Positions 1,416 through 6,338 of a stretch of 6,338 nt of DNA are shown here, piece after piece. Position 1 is the stretch's first letter, and every line of letters begins with the position of its first letter. Origin of the DNA: an uncultured Panacagrimonas sp. (GTDB lineage Bacteria > Pseudomonadota > Gammaproteobacteria > Nevskiales > Nevskiaceae); contig CAMLNE010000251.1 in the NCBI GenBank assembly GCA_946481265.1, positions 1 through 6,338 of the forward strand, in the 5' to 3' direction. A program made the translations under genes and the position numbers. A model generated the notes under the pieces. It did not search any database, was not told where the DNA came from, and was given only the letters and a program-made list of their open reading frames with translations.

Positions 1416-2291
1416 ATGAGCGAACCGACGTCCTACACCCCGCCCAAGATCTGGACCTGGAACAAGCAGTCCGGCGGGCAATTCGCCAACATCAATCGCC
1501 CGGTCGCAGGACCTACCCACGAAAAGGAACTGCCGGTCGGCAAGCACGCCCTGCAGCTGTATTCGCTGGGCACGCCCAACGGCGTGAAGGTGACGCTGAT
1601 GCTCGAGGAACTGCTGGCCACCGGCCATGCCGGTGCCGAGTACGACGCCTGGCTGATCCGCATCAACGACGGCGACCAGTTCTCCAGCGGCTTCGTCGAG
1701 ATCAATCCGAACTCGAAGATACCGGCGCTGCTCGACCGCTCCACGCCGATCCCCACGCGGGTGTTCGAGTCCGGCTCGATCCTGCTCTACCTCGCCGAGA
1801 AGTTCGGCGCCTTCCTCCCGGCCAGCGGACCGGTACGCACCGAGGCCCTGAACTGGCTGTTCTGGCAGATGGGCAGCGCGCCATACCTCGGTGGTGGCTT
1901 CGGCCATTTCTACGCCTACGCGCCCGACAAGATCGAATACGCGATCGATCGCTTCGCGATGGAGACCAAGCGCCAGCTCGATGTGCTGAACCGCCAGCTG
2001 GCGGACCATCGCTACCTGGCGGGCAGCGAGTACACGATCGCCGACATGGCGGTGTGGCCCTGGTACGGGGCCCTGGCGAAGGGCCTGATCTATGACGCCG
2101 GCGAGTTCCTGCAGGTCCAGGAGTACACCCACGTGCAGCGCTGGACCGACGAGATCGGCGCGCGTCCGGCCGCCAAGCGTGGCCGGATGGTGAACCGCAC
2201 CTGGGGCGAGCCGCACAGCCAGCTGTGGGAGCGGCACGACGCGAGCGATTTCGATCTGCGCACGCAGGATCGGATCGGCGAGAAACCCTAG
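1416..2291 (+). CDS. yghU: Nu-class glutathione transferase / GSH-dependent disulfide-bond oxidoreductase, YghU-like
   Basis: This 291-residue protein closely follows E. coli YghU (about 288 residues, recalled from knowledge) along its whole length, including the N-terminal extension (KIWTWNKQSGG, then FANINRPVAGPTHEK) before the thioredoxin fold. The thioredoxin-like domain covers about 45-130 with the GSH-site loop SLGTPNG (50-56), the cis-Pro motif NPNSKIPAL (97-105, Pro103) and the gamma-glutamyl-binding ESGS (118-121). The helical C-terminal domain follows, with TIADMAVWPW (207-216). There is no cysteine anywhere. That fits Nu-class enzymes, which bind two GSH molecules per subunit and use the GSH thiols themselves, giving disulfide reductase and some peroxide reductase activity but weak classical transferase activity. 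It should be cytosolic. A modest Shine-Dalgarno (GAGA, 1405-1408) sits 7 nt before the ATG. It is probably translated from the epoxide hydrolase transcript and is followed by a hairpin 22 nt after the stop. The physiological substrate is not known even in E. coli. Confidence 0.95.
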   Translation: MSEPTSYTPPKIWTWNKQSGGQFANINRPVAGPTHEKELPVGKHALQLYSLGTPNGVKVTLMLEELLATGHAGAEYDAWLIRINDGDQFSSGFVEINPNSKIPALLDRSTPIPTRVFESGSILLYLAEKFGAFLPASGPVRTEALNWLFWQMGSAPYLGGGFGHFYAYAPDKIEYAIDRFAMETKRQLDVLNRQLADHRYLAGSEYTIADMAVWPWYGALAKGLIYDAGEFLQVQEYTHVQRWTDEIGARPAAKRGRMVNRTWGEPHSQLWERHDASDFDLRTQDRIGEKP

Positions 2292-2312
2292 AGCGCGACC
2301 GGCGGGTACCGG

Positions 2313-2338
2313 GGCGCAGGCCGCAAGGCGGCTGCGCC
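2313..2338 (+). terminator. GC-rich hairpin after yghU, possible weak terminator
   Basis: Arms GGCGCAG (2313-2319) plus CCGC (2321-2324) pair with GCGG (2328-2331) plus CTGCGCC (2332-2338). This gives 11 base pairs with one bulged G and a 3-nt AAG loop. It begins 22 nt after the yghU stop. There is no T-run behind it, so it is not a textbook intrinsic terminator; it may stabilise the 3' end or slow polymerase. Confidence 0.45.
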
Positions 2339-2359
2339 AGATCCGCCGTGCGCCGGTGC

Positions 2360-2378
2360 CGTGCGCGCGGGCCGCACG
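2360..2378. repeat. Short inverted repeat in the spacer
   Basis: CGTGCG (2360-2365) and CGCACG (2373-2378) form a 6-bp perfect inverted repeat around a 7-nt loop. It could be a second small hairpin behind yghU or chance in GC-rich DNA. No T-run follows it. Confidence 0.3.
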
Positions 2379-2474
2379 CCATGCAAGGACGGGCAGGGAC
2401 ACGTCGCGCCGTTTGCCCACCCCCGCGGCGCAGACCGATGCGCAGGCCGAGGCCGTTTCCACGAGATGCGATCG

Positions 2475-2496
2475 CGGGCCGACCGCGCGCGGCCCG
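2475..2496. repeat. 7-bp perfect inverted repeat, candidate operator or hairpin
   Basis: CGGGCCG (2475-2481) and CGGCCCG (2490-2496) are perfect inverted copies separated by 8 nt. The repeat lies about 130 nt before the start codon of the monooxygenase-esterase, where a regulator could bind. It is equally compatible with a chance GC-rich hairpin; no regulator gene is visible in the window. Confidence 0.3.
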
Positions 2497-2612
2497 GAAG
2501 CGACTTGCGCGTAATGCCATGTGTTCTGCGCCTCAGGCCAAGTCTGGAAGCGCGATCGGGTGCACTGTCGTGCCATACCGGGCATCAGACCCGACATTCA
2601 GCACACGCGACC

Positions 2613-2618
2613 GAGGAG
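2613..2618 (+). promoter_or_regulatory. Ribosome binding site GAGGAG
   Basis: GAGGAG lies 10 nt before the ATG at 2629. It decides the start of the fusion gene: the frame is open upstream to an ATG at 2521, but that would add 36 residues without similarity to the family before the canonical beginning of the FAD-binding Rossmann fold. Confidence 0.8.
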
Positions 2619-2628
2619 CAACCTCCGC

Positions 2629-4230
2629 ATGAACCCTCATTTCGACGTCATCGTCATCGGTGCCGGATTCACCGGCCTGTACGCCGTGCACAGGCTGCGC
2701 GACGAACTCGGTCTGAAGGTGGTGGGTCTCGACGCCGCCGGCGGGCCGGGCGGCACCTGGTGGTGGAACCGCTACCCCGGCGCGCGATGCGACATCGAGT
2801 CGGTGCACTACTCGTACTCGTTCTCGGACGAGATCCAGCGTGAATGGAAGTGGTCCGAGCGCTATGCCGCGCAGCCGGAGATCCTGCGCTACCTGGAGTT
2901 CGTGGCCGACAAGCTGGACCTGCGCCGCTCGTTCCGCTTCGGACAACGCGTGACCTCGACGGTATGGAACGATGCCGCCGCGCACTGGACCGTGACCACC
3001 GACACCGGCGAAACGATCACCGCGCGCTTCGTCATCGCCGGCACCGGCAATGTCACGGTGCCCAAGTCGCGGGCCGAGTTCCCCGGAATCGAGCGCTTCA
3101 AGGGGCCGGTGTATGCCACCGGCCGCTGGCCGCACGAGGGCGTCGACTTCACCGGCATGCGCGTCGGCGTGATCGGAACGGGCTCGAGCGGCATCCAGGT
3201 GATTCCGCAGGTGGCCAAGCAGGCGGCGCAGCTCACCGTGTTCCAGCGCACGCCGAACTACGCCGTGGCGATGCAGAACAAAAAGCTCACTCCCGAACAG
3301 CAGGAGTGGAACGCACAGAACGCGAAGCAGTTGCGTGACAAGGCGCGGCTGCGTTTCCTGGGCGTGCCCTACGCCAACCCCGCGCCGAGCGCGCTCGAGG
3401 TCAGCCCGGAGGTGCGCAAGGCGCGCTACGAGGAACTGTGGGAGAAGGGCGGCTTCAACCTACTGGTGTCGAGCTATGCCGATCTGCTGATGGACGAGCG
3501 CGCCAACGCCACCGTGGCGGAGTTTGTCCGCGAAAAGATCCGCGGGAAGGTCAAGGACCCGGCGGTGGCCGAGATCCTGTGTCCCAAGGATCATCCCTAC
3601 GCGACCAAGCGGCCGACCGTGGAAGAGGACTACTACGAAACCTTCAATCGCGAGAACGTCAGCCTGGTCGACCTGCGCGCCACGCCGCTGCAGGAAGTGA
3701 CCGCCAAGGGCATCCGTACCAGCGATGGGGAACACGAGTTCGACGCGATCATCATGGCGACGGGCTTCGATGCCGTGACCGGTGCGTTGTTCGCGCTGGG
3801 CATCGTCGGTCGCGACGGCCTGCGCCTGCAGGATCGCTGGGCCCACGGTCCGAAAACCTACCTCGGCATCGCAAGCGCGGAATTTCCAAACCTGTTCACC
3901 ATCACCGGCCCGACCAGCGCCGTCATCCTCTACAACAACCCGCTGGCGATCGAGGACCACGTCGATTTCGCGGTCGATGCGATCAAGCATGTGCTCGACA
4001 AGGGCGCAACGACCTTCGAGGCGGACGCCGCCGCGGAAACCGCCTGGTTCAAGATGGCGAGCGACACGCTGAACATGACGCTCTTCCCGCGCGCCAACTC
4101 CTGGTACATGGGCGCCAACGTTCCCGGCAAGCCGCGCAGCGTGTTCATGTTCGCCGGCTCGGCGCCGCTGTATCGCGAGATGTGCCGGGAGGTGGTGGAG
4201 CGTGGCTATGCGGGTTTCCGCATCGACGGC
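2629..4230 (+). other. Domain: Baeyer-Villiger monooxygenase part of the fusion
   Basis: This part is as long as stand-alone enzymes such as phenylacetone monooxygenase (about 540 residues) and ends at GYAGFRIDG, matching the family's usual C-terminus (GYEGF in phenylacetone monooxygenase). In the substrate-pocket loop (427-444), Val432, Ile433, Leu434 and Tyr435 align, by my reading, with Ser441, Ala442, Leu443 and Ser444 of phenylacetone monooxygenase. A bulkier, differently shaped pocket is therefore likely. Confidence 0.85.
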
Positions 4231-5223
4231 GCACCGGCGGATCGCGTGCCGCCGATGATCCAGATCGACGCCGCCGTGGCGGGTGTCGTGGGCGCCATGC
4301 TGATGCAGGAGGTCAAGCCGCTCGAGGAGTGCTCGATCGAGGAGGCGCGAGCCGTGGTCGAGAGCTTCATCGACATGCAGAAGCCGGTGCCGGCGTCCGT
4401 CGAGCGGATCGAGACGCGCTATCCGGGACCGGCAGACACGCGCCCGGTCTATATCTACAAGCCGAAGAACGCGAAGGGCCCGTTGCCGGTGCTCGTCTAC
4501 CTGCACGGCGGCGGTTTCATCGCCGGCAGCATCGACATGTGCGCCGGCGTCTGCGGCGGCATGGCCGAGGACCTGCAGGCCATCGTGGTCGCGCCGAGCT
4601 ATCGCCTGGCGCCGGAAGCGCCGTTCCCGGCGGCCACCGACGACACGTTCGCGGCCCTGCGCTGGACGGCGGCGACGATCGCGCGCCACGGCGGTGATCC
4701 GGCGCGGCTGGTCGTGATGGGCGAAAGCGCCGGTGGCCTGCTCGCCGCCGTCGCGGCGCAGCGGGCACGTGACGAAGGCGGGCCGGCATTGAGCGGCCAG
4801 GTACTGGTGTATCCGACGATCGATATCGAGGCGGACACCCGCTCGCGGGTCGAGTACGCCGCGGGCCCGGTGCTGAAGACCCAGGCCGCGATCGGCATGT
4901 GGACGGCCTATCTCGGCGACACCGCCAAGGCCGCTTCGCCGCTGGCCTCTCCGCGCCGGGCGAAATCGCTGGCCGGCCTGGCGCCCGCGCTGGTCCTCTC
5001 CGCGGAATGCGATCCGACCCGCGACGAGGGCGAGGAGTACGGCCGCGCGATGCAGGCGGCCGGTGTCCCCGTGCGCATCCACCGGCTCGAGGGCATGGTC
5101 CACGCGGTGTTCTACATGTCGCGCCACGTCCCGCGGACCGAGGAGATCACCGAGCAGGTCGCTGCCTTCCTCGACTCGCTCGCCGCCAAACCGCGGGCCG
5201 TCGAGGCCGAGACCCTGGCCTGA
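2629..5223 (+). CDS. Fusion protein: class-I Baeyer-Villiger monooxygenase + HSL-family esterase
   Basis: This 864-residue protein joins two complete enzymes. Residues 1-534 form an FAD/NADPH Baeyer-Villiger monooxygenase: FAD Rossmann motif GAGFTG (11-16); GGTWWWNRYPGARCD (41-55) ending in catalytic Asp55; NADP motif GTGSSG (183-188); Arg207-Thr208 for NADP; catalytic Arg328 in ATKR; ATGFD (377-381); Trp492 in SWYMGANVPGKPR. The second fingerprint reads FKGPVYATGRWP (157-168), with Ala163 where the hallmark His is expected. Residues about 545-850 form an alpha/beta hydrolase of the hormone-sensitive-lipase family: HGGGF oxyanion hole (626-630), YRLAPE (658-663), nucleophile Ser700 in GESAG, acid Asp795 (AECDPTRDEG) and His825 (GMVHAV). 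The linker at about 535-600 contains the usual N-terminal cap helix of such esterases. Predicted chemistry is ketone + O2 + NADPH to ester or lactone, then hydrolysis to alcohol and acid. No signal peptide or membrane segment is seen, so it is probably cytosolic. The start is set by GAGGAG at 2613-2618. Substrate unknown. Confidence 0.93.
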   Translation: MNPHFDVIVIGAGFTGLYAVHRLRDELGLKVVGLDAAGGPGGTWWWNRYPGARCDIESVHYSYSFSDEIQREWKWSERYAAQPEILRYLEFVADKLDLRRSFRFGQRVTSTVWNDAAAHWTVTTDTGETITARFVIAGTGNVTVPKSRAEFPGIERFKGPVYATGRWPHEGVDFTGMRVGVIGTGSSGIQVIPQVAKQAAQLTVFQRTPNYAVAMQNKKLTPEQQEWNAQNAKQLRDKARLRFLGVPYANPAPSALEVSPEVRKARYEELWEKGGFNLLVSSYADLLMDERANATVAEFVREKIRGKVKDPAVAEILCPKDHPYATKRPTVEEDYYETFNRENVSLVDLRATPLQEVTAKGIRTSDGEHEFDAIIMATGFDAVTGALFALGIVGRDGLRLQDRWAHGPKTYLGIASAEFPNLFTITGPTSAVILYNNPLAIEDHVDFAVDAIKHVLDKGATTFEADAAAETAWFKMASDTLNMTLFPRANSWYMGANVPGKPRSVFMFAGSAPLYREMCREVVERGYAGFRIDGAPADRVPPMIQIDAAVAGVVGAMLMQEVKPLEECSIEEARAVVESFIDMQKPVPASVERIETRYPGPADTRPVYIYKPKNAKGPLPVLVYLHGGGFIAGSIDMCAGVCGGMAEDLQAIVVAPSYRLAPEAPFPAATDDTFAALRWTAATIARHGGDPARLVVMGESAGGLLAAVAAQRARDEGGPALSGQVLVYPTIDIEADTRSRVEYAAGPVLKTQAAIGMWTAYLGDTAKAASPLASPRRAKSLAGLAPALVLSAECDPTRDEGEEYGRAMQAAGVPVRIHRLEGMVHAVFYMSRHVPRTEEITEQVAAFLDSLAAKPRAVEAETLA
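4255..5220 (+). other. Domain: alpha/beta-hydrolase esterase part of the fusion
   Basis: From Met543 to the C-terminus this part is 322 residues, the usual size of a stand-alone bacterial HSL-family esterase, with the triad Ser700-Asp795-His825 and the HGGG motif intact. An ATG at 4255 could in principle start it alone, but the purine-rich GGCGG at 4236-4240 is 14 nt away, too far for a good ribosome binding site. Translation as one fused chain is the simpler reading. The last ~14 residues (PRAVEAETLA end) look like an unstructured tail. Confidence 0.8.
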
Positions 5224-5230
5224 AGTCGGC

Positions 5231-5260
5231 GCCGCCCCCGGACGATGTCCGGTGGGCGGC
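5231..5260. terminator. Strong convergent hairpin, probable bidirectional terminator
   Basis: GCCGCCC (5231-5237) plus CCGGAC (5238-5243) pair with GTCCGG (5247-5252) plus GGGCGGC (5254-5260). This makes a 13-bp stem with one bulged T and a 3-nt loop. It starts 7 nt after the stop of the fusion gene and lies between convergent genes. There is no T-run on either side, so it may work as a GC-rich hairpin terminator or 3'-end stabiliser. Confidence 0.65.
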
Positions 5261-5263
5261 CAG

Positions 5264-5301
5264 GCCGGCGACGCCGCCGGAACGCGGTCGGCGCTGCCGG
5301 C
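5264..5301. terminator. Second hairpin in the convergent spacer, behind the MFS gene
   Basis: Outer arms GCCGGC (5264-5269 and 5296-5301) enclose an inner stem of CGCCG + CCG (5272-5279) with CGG + CGGCG (5285-5287, 5289-5293), a bulged T and a 5-nt loop. It ends 10 nt before the stop codon of the minus-strand transporter gene, so it would be the first structure in that mRNA's 3' end. No T-run accompanies it. Confidence 0.5.
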
Positions 5302-5311
5302 GCGCGGTGAT

Positions 5312-6338
5312 TCAGGACCGCGCGGCGGCGGCCGGGACGCGCGAATGCAGACCCAGCGCGATCAGCGTCAGCGCCGCGAGGGCGAGCCAGGGCAGCAGCA
5401 GGAGATTGAGCGTCTGCCAGCCGAAGACCTGGAGCAGCGGCGCCGCCCCGAAGGAACAGGCAAGTCCCACGACGAACACCACCATGTCGTTGGTCGCCTG
5501 CGCGCTGCTCTTCTCGGCCGGCGTGTGGGTGGTGGTCAGCAAGGCCGTACCGCCGATGTAGAGGAAGTTCCAGCCGACCCCCAGCAGGACCAGCGCGCTG
5601 GCGAAGGATCCGAAGCCGGTGCCGGTCGAGGTCATCAGCACGTGCCCGCTGATCAGCATCACGCCGCTGAACATCACCGGCAGCACGCCGTACCGCGCGA
5701 TCAGCGACCCCGTGAAGAACGAGGGGAGGAACATGCCGATGACGTGCAGCTGGATCACCGTGGCCGCCGCGCCCAGGTCGTGATGGTGGTGCCCCATGGC
5801 GATCGGTGTCGCCGTCATCGCCAGGATCATCACGCCGAAGCCGGTCGCGGCACCGAACAGCGCGCCCAGGTAGGTCGGTTGCGTGACGACCTCGCGCCAG
5901 CGGCGACGCGGCGCGGCGCCGATCCCGCCGGGATCCTCCGCCGGTATGCGCAGGCGGGAAAGAACCAGGCATCCCACGGCCGACAGGCCGGCCAGGATCA
6001 GGAAGGAGCCCGCGTAGAGCGGCGTGGGCAGCGAGCCCTCCAGGCGGACCAGCGCGGGGCCGAGTAGCGCGGCAACCACGCCCCCGGCCAGCACCAGGGC
6101 GATCGCGCGTGGCCGGAACGCCTCGCTGGCGACCTCGCCGGCGGCGAACCGGTAGACCTGGGCGAAGGCCGCGTACATGCCGAACAGGAAGGTTCCCAGC
6201 GACAGGATCCACAGCGCGCCGCGGTAGATGCCGACGGCGCAGACGATGCCGCCGGCGACCCCGAGCAGGGTCCCGATCACGAATCCGGCGCGGCGGCCCA
6301 GGGTGGCCATCAGCGACGAGGCCGGGAACATCGCCACA
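5312..6338 (-). CDS. MFS transporter, partial (N-terminus beyond the right edge)
   Basis: The minus-strand frame runs from the right edge to a TGA at 5312-5314, giving 341 or so C-terminal residues of a major facilitator superfamily permease in the inner membrane. The visible part opens with MFPASSLMATLGRRAGF, which fits the loop between TM2 and TM3 (motif A with the GRR signature), so TM1 and most of TM2 (about 55-65 residues) are missing. GTG at 6337-6335 and ATG at 6331 are therefore internal, not starts. Ten hydrophobic segments follow, with a charged central loop (RRRWRE, 144-149) between TM6 and TM7. HHHH (183-186) lies in the loop after TM7. A block characteristic of this MFS group, HVIGMFLPSFFTG (198-210), is in TM8. 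The substrate cannot be inferred. It is convergent with the fusion gene, with an 88-nt spacer, so it is not in the same operon. Confidence 0.9.
   Translation of the reverse strand, partial: VAMFPASSLMATLGRRAGFVIGTLLGVAGGIVCAVGIYRGALWILSLGTFLFGMYAAFAQVYRFAAGEVASEAFRPRAIALVLAGGVVAALLGPALVRLEGSLPTPLYAGSFLILAGLSAVGCLVLSRLRIPAEDPGGIGAAPRRRWREVVTQPTYLGALFGAATGFGVMILAMTATPIAMGHHHHDLGAAATVIQLHVIGMFLPSFFTGSLIARYGVLPVMFSGVMLISGHVLMTSTGTGFGSFASALVLLGVGWNFLYIGGTALLTTTHTPAEKSSAQATNDMVVFVVGLACSFGAAPLLQVFGWQTLNLLLLPWLALAALTLIALGLHSRVPAAAARS

Follow-up and report, generated by a model that had tools for sequence, protein, structure and literature searches.

In the acetone pathway of Gordonia (acmAB) and the methyl ethyl ketone pathway of Pseudomonas (mekAB), a Baeyer-Villiger monooxygenase (BVMO) and an esterase are encoded by separate genes, and artificial BVMO cascades and fusions are built by chemists. 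One natural fusion that contains a BVMO is BVMOAf1 of Aspergillus fumigatus, which may be linked to the pseurotin enzyme PsoF. In this 905-aa protein the BVMO makes up the N-terminal 540 residues or so; the histidine of the second BVMO fingerprint is replaced by Gln there, and the truncated BVMO is active. The protein is eukaryotic, and its C-terminal portion has been described as a polynucleotide synthase domain, not an esterase (PMC3762062). BVMO-hydrolase clusters are also present in Sphingobium AntQ-1, the first of them combining a luciferase-like BVMO with a hydrolase of another family (PMC9836352). In the acmAB, mekAB and AntQ-1 clusters the same two activities have been proposed to act in sequence, but on separate chains. 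Full-text searches of one open-licence paper collection turned up no description of a natural BVMO-esterase fusion.

Here we analyse a gene in which the two are joined, located in a stretch of 6,338 nucleotides from an uncultured Panacagrimonas sp. (the window; Table 1). The single uninterrupted frame claimed in the preliminary description is borne out: frame 2629-5223(+) has 864 codons and zero internal stops, giving one chain of 864 aa, its ATG start has GAGGAG shortly upstream, and both an FMO-like domain (best stretch 7-213) and Abhydrolase_3 (622-828) score above the Pfam gathering score. A stop or frameshift was looked for near 4230-4260 and none was found; stop-free full-length fused relatives exist at 84-86% identity, in three Nevskia genomes (L001-L003) and in Nevskia ramosa (P0002). 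When the gene was compared with four copies of this kind (NG86), dN/dS was 0.14-0.18 for the BVMO half and 0.12-0.17 for the esterase half, and since the values lie within 0.12-0.18, both halves are under purifying selection.

Table 1. Features of the window and of the fused gene, with positions in the window and residues of the fused protein.
Feature	Position	Strand	Residues	Remarks
Epoxide hydrolase (EHN + Abhydrolase_1), upstream of fused gene	225-1367	same as YghU-type GST gene
YghU-type glutathione-dependent disulfide-bond oxidoreductase (GST), upstream	1416-2291			above NCBIfam cut-off
Fused gene: BVMO-like monooxygenase, then HSL-type esterase	2629..5223	+		864 aa
Monooxygenase half (FAD + NADPH domains, PAMO-like)	2629..4227	+	1-533	PAMO match, Foldseek
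First Rossmann motif GAGFTG	2659..2676	+	11-16
First BVMO fingerprint GGTWWWNRYPGARCD	2749..2793	+	41-55	intact; Asp55 = PAMO Asp66
Lys146 (PAMO position 157), varies with fingerprint His	3064..3066	+	146	Lys in 115/120 best listed fused homologues
Second BVMO fingerprint FKGPVYATGRWP	3097..3132	+	157-168	His position = Ala163 (nt 3115-3117)
Second Rossmann motif GTGSSG	3175..3192	+	183-188
Arg328 (PAMO Arg337)	3610..3612	+	328	120/120 best listed fused homologues
Joint and esterase cap segment	4228..4398	+	534-590	helices 548-559 and 570-583; model
Esterase alpha/beta-hydrolase core	4399..5178	+	591-850	Abhydrolase_3, Est8 match
HGGG oxyanion motif	4504..4515	+	626-629
GESAG nucleophile motif	4720..4734	+	698-702	Ser700; Ser in 120/120 best listed fused homologues
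Triad Asp795	5011..5013	+	795	119/120 best listed fused homologues, one gap
Triad His825	5101..5103	+	825	119/120 best listed fused homologues, one gap
MFS transporter	5312-6337	minus

Each half belongs to a known kind of enzyme. Residues 5-531 match phenylacetone monooxygenase (PAMO, 1w4x) with an E-value of 8.6e-173 in a search of PDB sequences, and a Foldseek comparison aligned the first half with PAMO entries (within ranks 1-12) at 48-50% identity and with TM scores of 0.95-0.98 by PAMO length. PAMO and steroid monooxygenase (4aos) are type I BVMOs, and it is the whole first half that matches in sequence. Common to PAMO and the first half are the first fingerprint, the Rossmann motifs and the counterparts of Arg337 and Asp66, whereas PAMO is without an esterase domain and has His173 in its fingerprint where the fused protein has Ala163. 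The strict BVMO pattern [A/G]GxWxxxx[F/Y]P[G/M]xxxD is present at 41-55, as GGTWWWNRYPGARCD. Asp55 and Arg328, the latter corresponding to the Baeyer-Villiger active-site arginine, are kept in all 120 fused homologues considered (the best 120 of 8000 scored, 793-898 aa long with at least 88% query cover, of which P0001 is the window's own protein), and Trp492 is present in 116 of these best 120.

The second half scores 224.7 bits for Abhydrolase_3 (PF07859; cut-off 25) and carries the motifs HGG(G), GxSxG, Asp and His, i.e. it is an HSL-type (bacterial family IV) esterase, with zero cut-offs reached among the NCBIfam HSL subfamilies (LipP1, 292 of 350 bits). In the PDB sequence search residues 545-833 match Est8 (4ypv; E-value 4.6e-53). 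Abhydrolase_3, HGGG, GxSAG, Asp, His and the N-terminal cap segment are shared with Est8, EST2 (1qz3) and HSL family IV; unlike Est8 and EST2, the fused protein has GESAG and is joined to a BVMO. The linker had been suggested to hold the N-terminal cap helix of the esterase itself, and we agree, as the Est8 match starts already at residue 545 and, in the model, helices 548-559 and 570-583 precede the first strand at 591. The full-length AlphaFold2 model (79-sequence alignment) has two domains, a mean pLDDT of 94.5 and a pTM of 0.91, and the joint (residues 531-590) is ordered, with pLDDT block means of 93-95; a model of P0112, from another fusion lineage, gave a pLDDT of 89.2 and a pTM of 0.84 with 22 sequences. 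A pTM of 0.91 across two domains suggests that these are held in a defined mutual arrangement.

The second fingerprint, FAGNLYHTGNWP in PAMO, reads FKGPVYATGRWP in the fused protein and fails the strict pattern FxGxxxHxxxW[P/D], with Ala replacing His and the remainder kept, a change that had been overlooked. Because this His is replaced, the protein would not be filed as a type I BVMO under a strict motif definition; by fold, sequence and active-site residues its monooxygenase half should nevertheless work like one. The 'complete' BVMO of the preliminary description therefore stands with a caveat: Arg328 and Asp55 are kept in 120/120, but the second fingerprint has lost its histidine. Only four of the best 120 listed fused homologues, and one of the 119 listed nearest unfused homologues, retain it. 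In the 79-sequence alignment 15 different residues occur at site 163, which ranks third in variability among the 533 monooxygenase sites; Gly159 and Trp167 are invariant in the same alignment. Among the fetched loci the His is found in 0/21 fused and 58/80 unfused genes (one row, with a shifted motif, was dropped), and a 77-row tree calls for a minimum of 15 gains or losses of this residue. Arrival of the His loss together with the fusion was considered and rejected, as the nearest unfused homologues are also without His (1/119 keeps it). A comparison of fusion with His loss gave p 1 over four independent pairs, and the independent fusions are too few for any association between the two to be claimed.

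In previous work, 121 BVMO sequences were curated by both fingerprints (PMC4498894), and the second has been termed a super-hallmark, with the remark that degenerate forms of it occur (PMC9044951); these surveys kept only sequences with FxGxxxHxxxW[PD] and would therefore miss a His-less branch. Mutating the fingerprint His reduces the activity of CHMO and abolishes that of HAPMO, whereas natural BVMOAf1, with Gln in its place, is active, and the same paper cites BVMOs from rhodococci whose motif is not fully conserved (PMC3762062). Since a natural His-to-Gln BVMO is active, the monooxygenase domain is probably not dead, and by this analogy the half without the fingerprint His is probably still catalytically alive. 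Variability of this His in single enzymes was already known; what is new here is a large branch that is unconstrained at the site.

The segment just before the second fingerprint, PAMO 156-159, varies together with the His across the family. Where His is missing, PAMO position 157 is Lys in 239 of 247 rows; where His is present, it is Lys in three of 34. A Pagel-type test of His against Lys gave a likelihood ratio of 31.9 on 281 rows and 19.7 on 156 thinned rows; on the thinned tree this dependence ranks fifth of the 250 columns tested (421 being eligible), with the 95th percentile at 16.7 and position 159 in first place, and because other columns score as well, the chi-square p is untrustworthy. 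Lys was present in 10/22 unfused fetched loci without His and in 9/58 with it (Fisher p 0.008, uncorrected for kinship). Across six independent pairs on supported branches, Lys changed in the direction opposite to His in 2.4 on average and in parallel with it in 0.1 (median p 0.5, at low power). We regard a His-Lys swap as suggestive only, a lead from sequence comparison and not a result.

Rarity of the architecture, which had been supposed earlier, is rejected, and the two parts are not always separate genes among homologues. Both Pfam families were detected in 120/120 of the best listed homologues, i.e. all are fused, and these come from Pseudomonadota and Actinomycetota, the fused homologues including Nevskia, Panacagrimonas, Zavarzinia, Bradyrhizobium, Rhodococcus, Gordonia, Pseudonocardia, Streptomyces and Solirubrobacterales. 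Of the 85 Nevskia-order genomes, nine have a full-length fused gene (E-values up to 1e-180), and a fused gene is present in eight of 299 genomes spread over Pseudomonadota, with at most three candidates scored per genome. This is a real and recurrent bacterial BVMO-esterase architecture, apparently undescribed.

Trees built on the monooxygenase half show three separate groups of fused proteins. F1, to which the window's protein belongs, accounts for 115 of the best 120 listed; F2 comprises the other five (P0110, P0112 and P0115-P0117), nested with the unfused P0142; F3, which emerged from genome searches (loci L041-L046 and L061, found in 4/150 genomes of the order of G372), is 43-45% identical to the window's protein; its esterase carries GWSAG, and the His site is occupied by Phe. 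Pfam confirmed both domains in members of all three. A single origin of the fusion was rejected, an AU test excluding one fused clade with p 4.7e-75 (77 rows, quick tree), and the esterase tree agrees, placing F2 among unfused esterases, F3 with the esterases of plasmid pairs and F1 alone with some fragments. From these trees, bacteria seem to have joined a BVMO to an esterase on about three occasions, with the same domain order, BVMO first, in the recurrent fusions; less probably, one early fusion was followed by many later splits. Three proteins inside F1, P0122-P0124 (561-573 aa), end just after the esterase-cap stub, probably because the esterase was later lost or split off.

Separate-gene counterparts, also proposed earlier, do exist: annotated BVMO and alpha/beta-hydrolase genes are neighbours at plasmid loci, which were chosen because both halves matched, and at one plasmid locus a dehydrogenase gene sits between the two. 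Of 69 unfused BVMO loci chosen without regard to such a neighbour, only 12 had an esterase-like gene within about 1.6 kb, so that an esterase is not a constant neighbour of the BVMO family, and five of these 12 are plasmid pairs again. In a Nocardia farcinica plasmid record (L031, 5992-8589) a BVMO that keeps the His and an esterase lie in frame with one stop between them, and tblastn gives one unbroken match across this near-fusion pair; the neighbouring frames resemble steroid-catabolism genes. Arthrobacter PAMC25564, Arthrobacter NPDC089319 and Rhodococcus ABRD24 occur in both unfused lists on equal-sized contigs, on which the two genes may be adjacent. Fusion of neighbouring genes would be the natural route to the joined form.

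The surroundings of the fused gene are variable. In the window, the epoxide hydrolase and YghU-type GST genes, directly upstream, share a strand with 48 bases between them, possibly as a detoxification pair, and 337 bases separate the GST-like gene from the fused-gene start; no sigma-70-like promoter was found within 2200-5400, and a search of the window for tRNA genes found none. Neither these two genes nor the MFS gene was met again when ten further fused loci were compared. Among the 11 loci including the window, several of which come from close kin, an AraC-type regulator adjoins the fused gene in five (L002, L034, L035, L036 and L037; Pfam was run on L002) and a SnoaL_4 protein in four (L001, L002, L034 and L036); all of these are from Nevskia-order genomes, and both genes are absent from the window. 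The neighbours in the 11 loci give no consistent answer as to the pathway.

We consider it probable, at roughly two chances in three, that the protein is a bifunctional ketone-breakdown enzyme, a chain that came out of one of about three gene fusions and is built on a BVMO scaffold without the fingerprint His. With NADPH, FAD and O2, the N-terminal half would place an oxygen atom beside a carbonyl (the Baeyer-Villiger reaction), and the HSL-type esterase would convert the resulting ester or lactone to an acid and an alcohol, or to a hydroxy acid; this hydrolysis would remove the product and make the two steps irreversible in effect, and the physical link between the halves would confine a labile or inhibitory ester to their vicinity. 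The assignment of ketone to ester or lactone and then hydrolysis follows from the two families and their kept active-site residues, and the earlier view of two domains acting consecutively in one chain is supported to this extent, as both domain families are present with their catalytic residues; both activities, and their order on one substrate, are inferred from sequence. Channelling of the lactone or ester and relief of product inhibition would be compatible with the well-packed model. In a variant that we find rather improbable, the protein represents a recurrent architecture on a BVMO branch freed from constraint on the His, with the two active sites fixed relative to each other, in which the PAMO 156-159 segment, with Lys146, partly replaces the His and the esterase offsets an altered product release.

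The main rival is that the monooxygenase half no longer performs the Baeyer-Villiger reaction but N- or S-oxygenation, or acts as an NADPH oxidase, the His loss marking the change of function and the esterase taking a pre-esterified substrate. The His is indeed absent from 116/120 of the best listed fused and 118/119 of the listed nearest unfused homologues, and its mutation harms CHMO and HAPMO; however, Asp55 and Arg328 are kept in 120/120 and Trp492 in 116/120 of the best listed fused proteins, an esterase partner suits ester-forming chemistry, and BVMOAf1, with Gln, oxidises a bicyclic ketone, although sulfides are also among its substrates and neither cyclohexanone nor phenylacetone was accepted (PMC3762062), so that we judge this reading unlikely. 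One may also consider that two independent activities share a chain for co-expression only, with no metabolic link beyond dosage, as separate BVMO/esterase pairs exist and P0122-P0124, within the fused clade, end after the cap stub as if the esterase can be lost. Such a scenario does not sit well with the confident packing of the AlphaFold2 model, the recurrence of the fusion in the same order, BVMO first, or the similar constraint on both halves, and seems to us quite unlikely. Finally, two genes might have been read as one through a sequencing or assembly artefact, and the Nocardia farcinica pair, in frame with a single stop between, illustrates how a miscalled stop could mimic a fusion. This was rejected on the strength of the stop-free fused relatives and of dN/dS on both halves, and with stop-free full-length fusions in 9/85 Nevskia-order and 8/299 Pseudomonadota genomes and in named isolates, its probability is negligible.

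Natural BVMO-esterase fusions in more than 100 sequence clusters offer material for tests of channelling and product inhibition. The finding on the fingerprint His bears on how BVMOs are recognised, and natural variants with about 15 residue types at this site make the role of the His testable.
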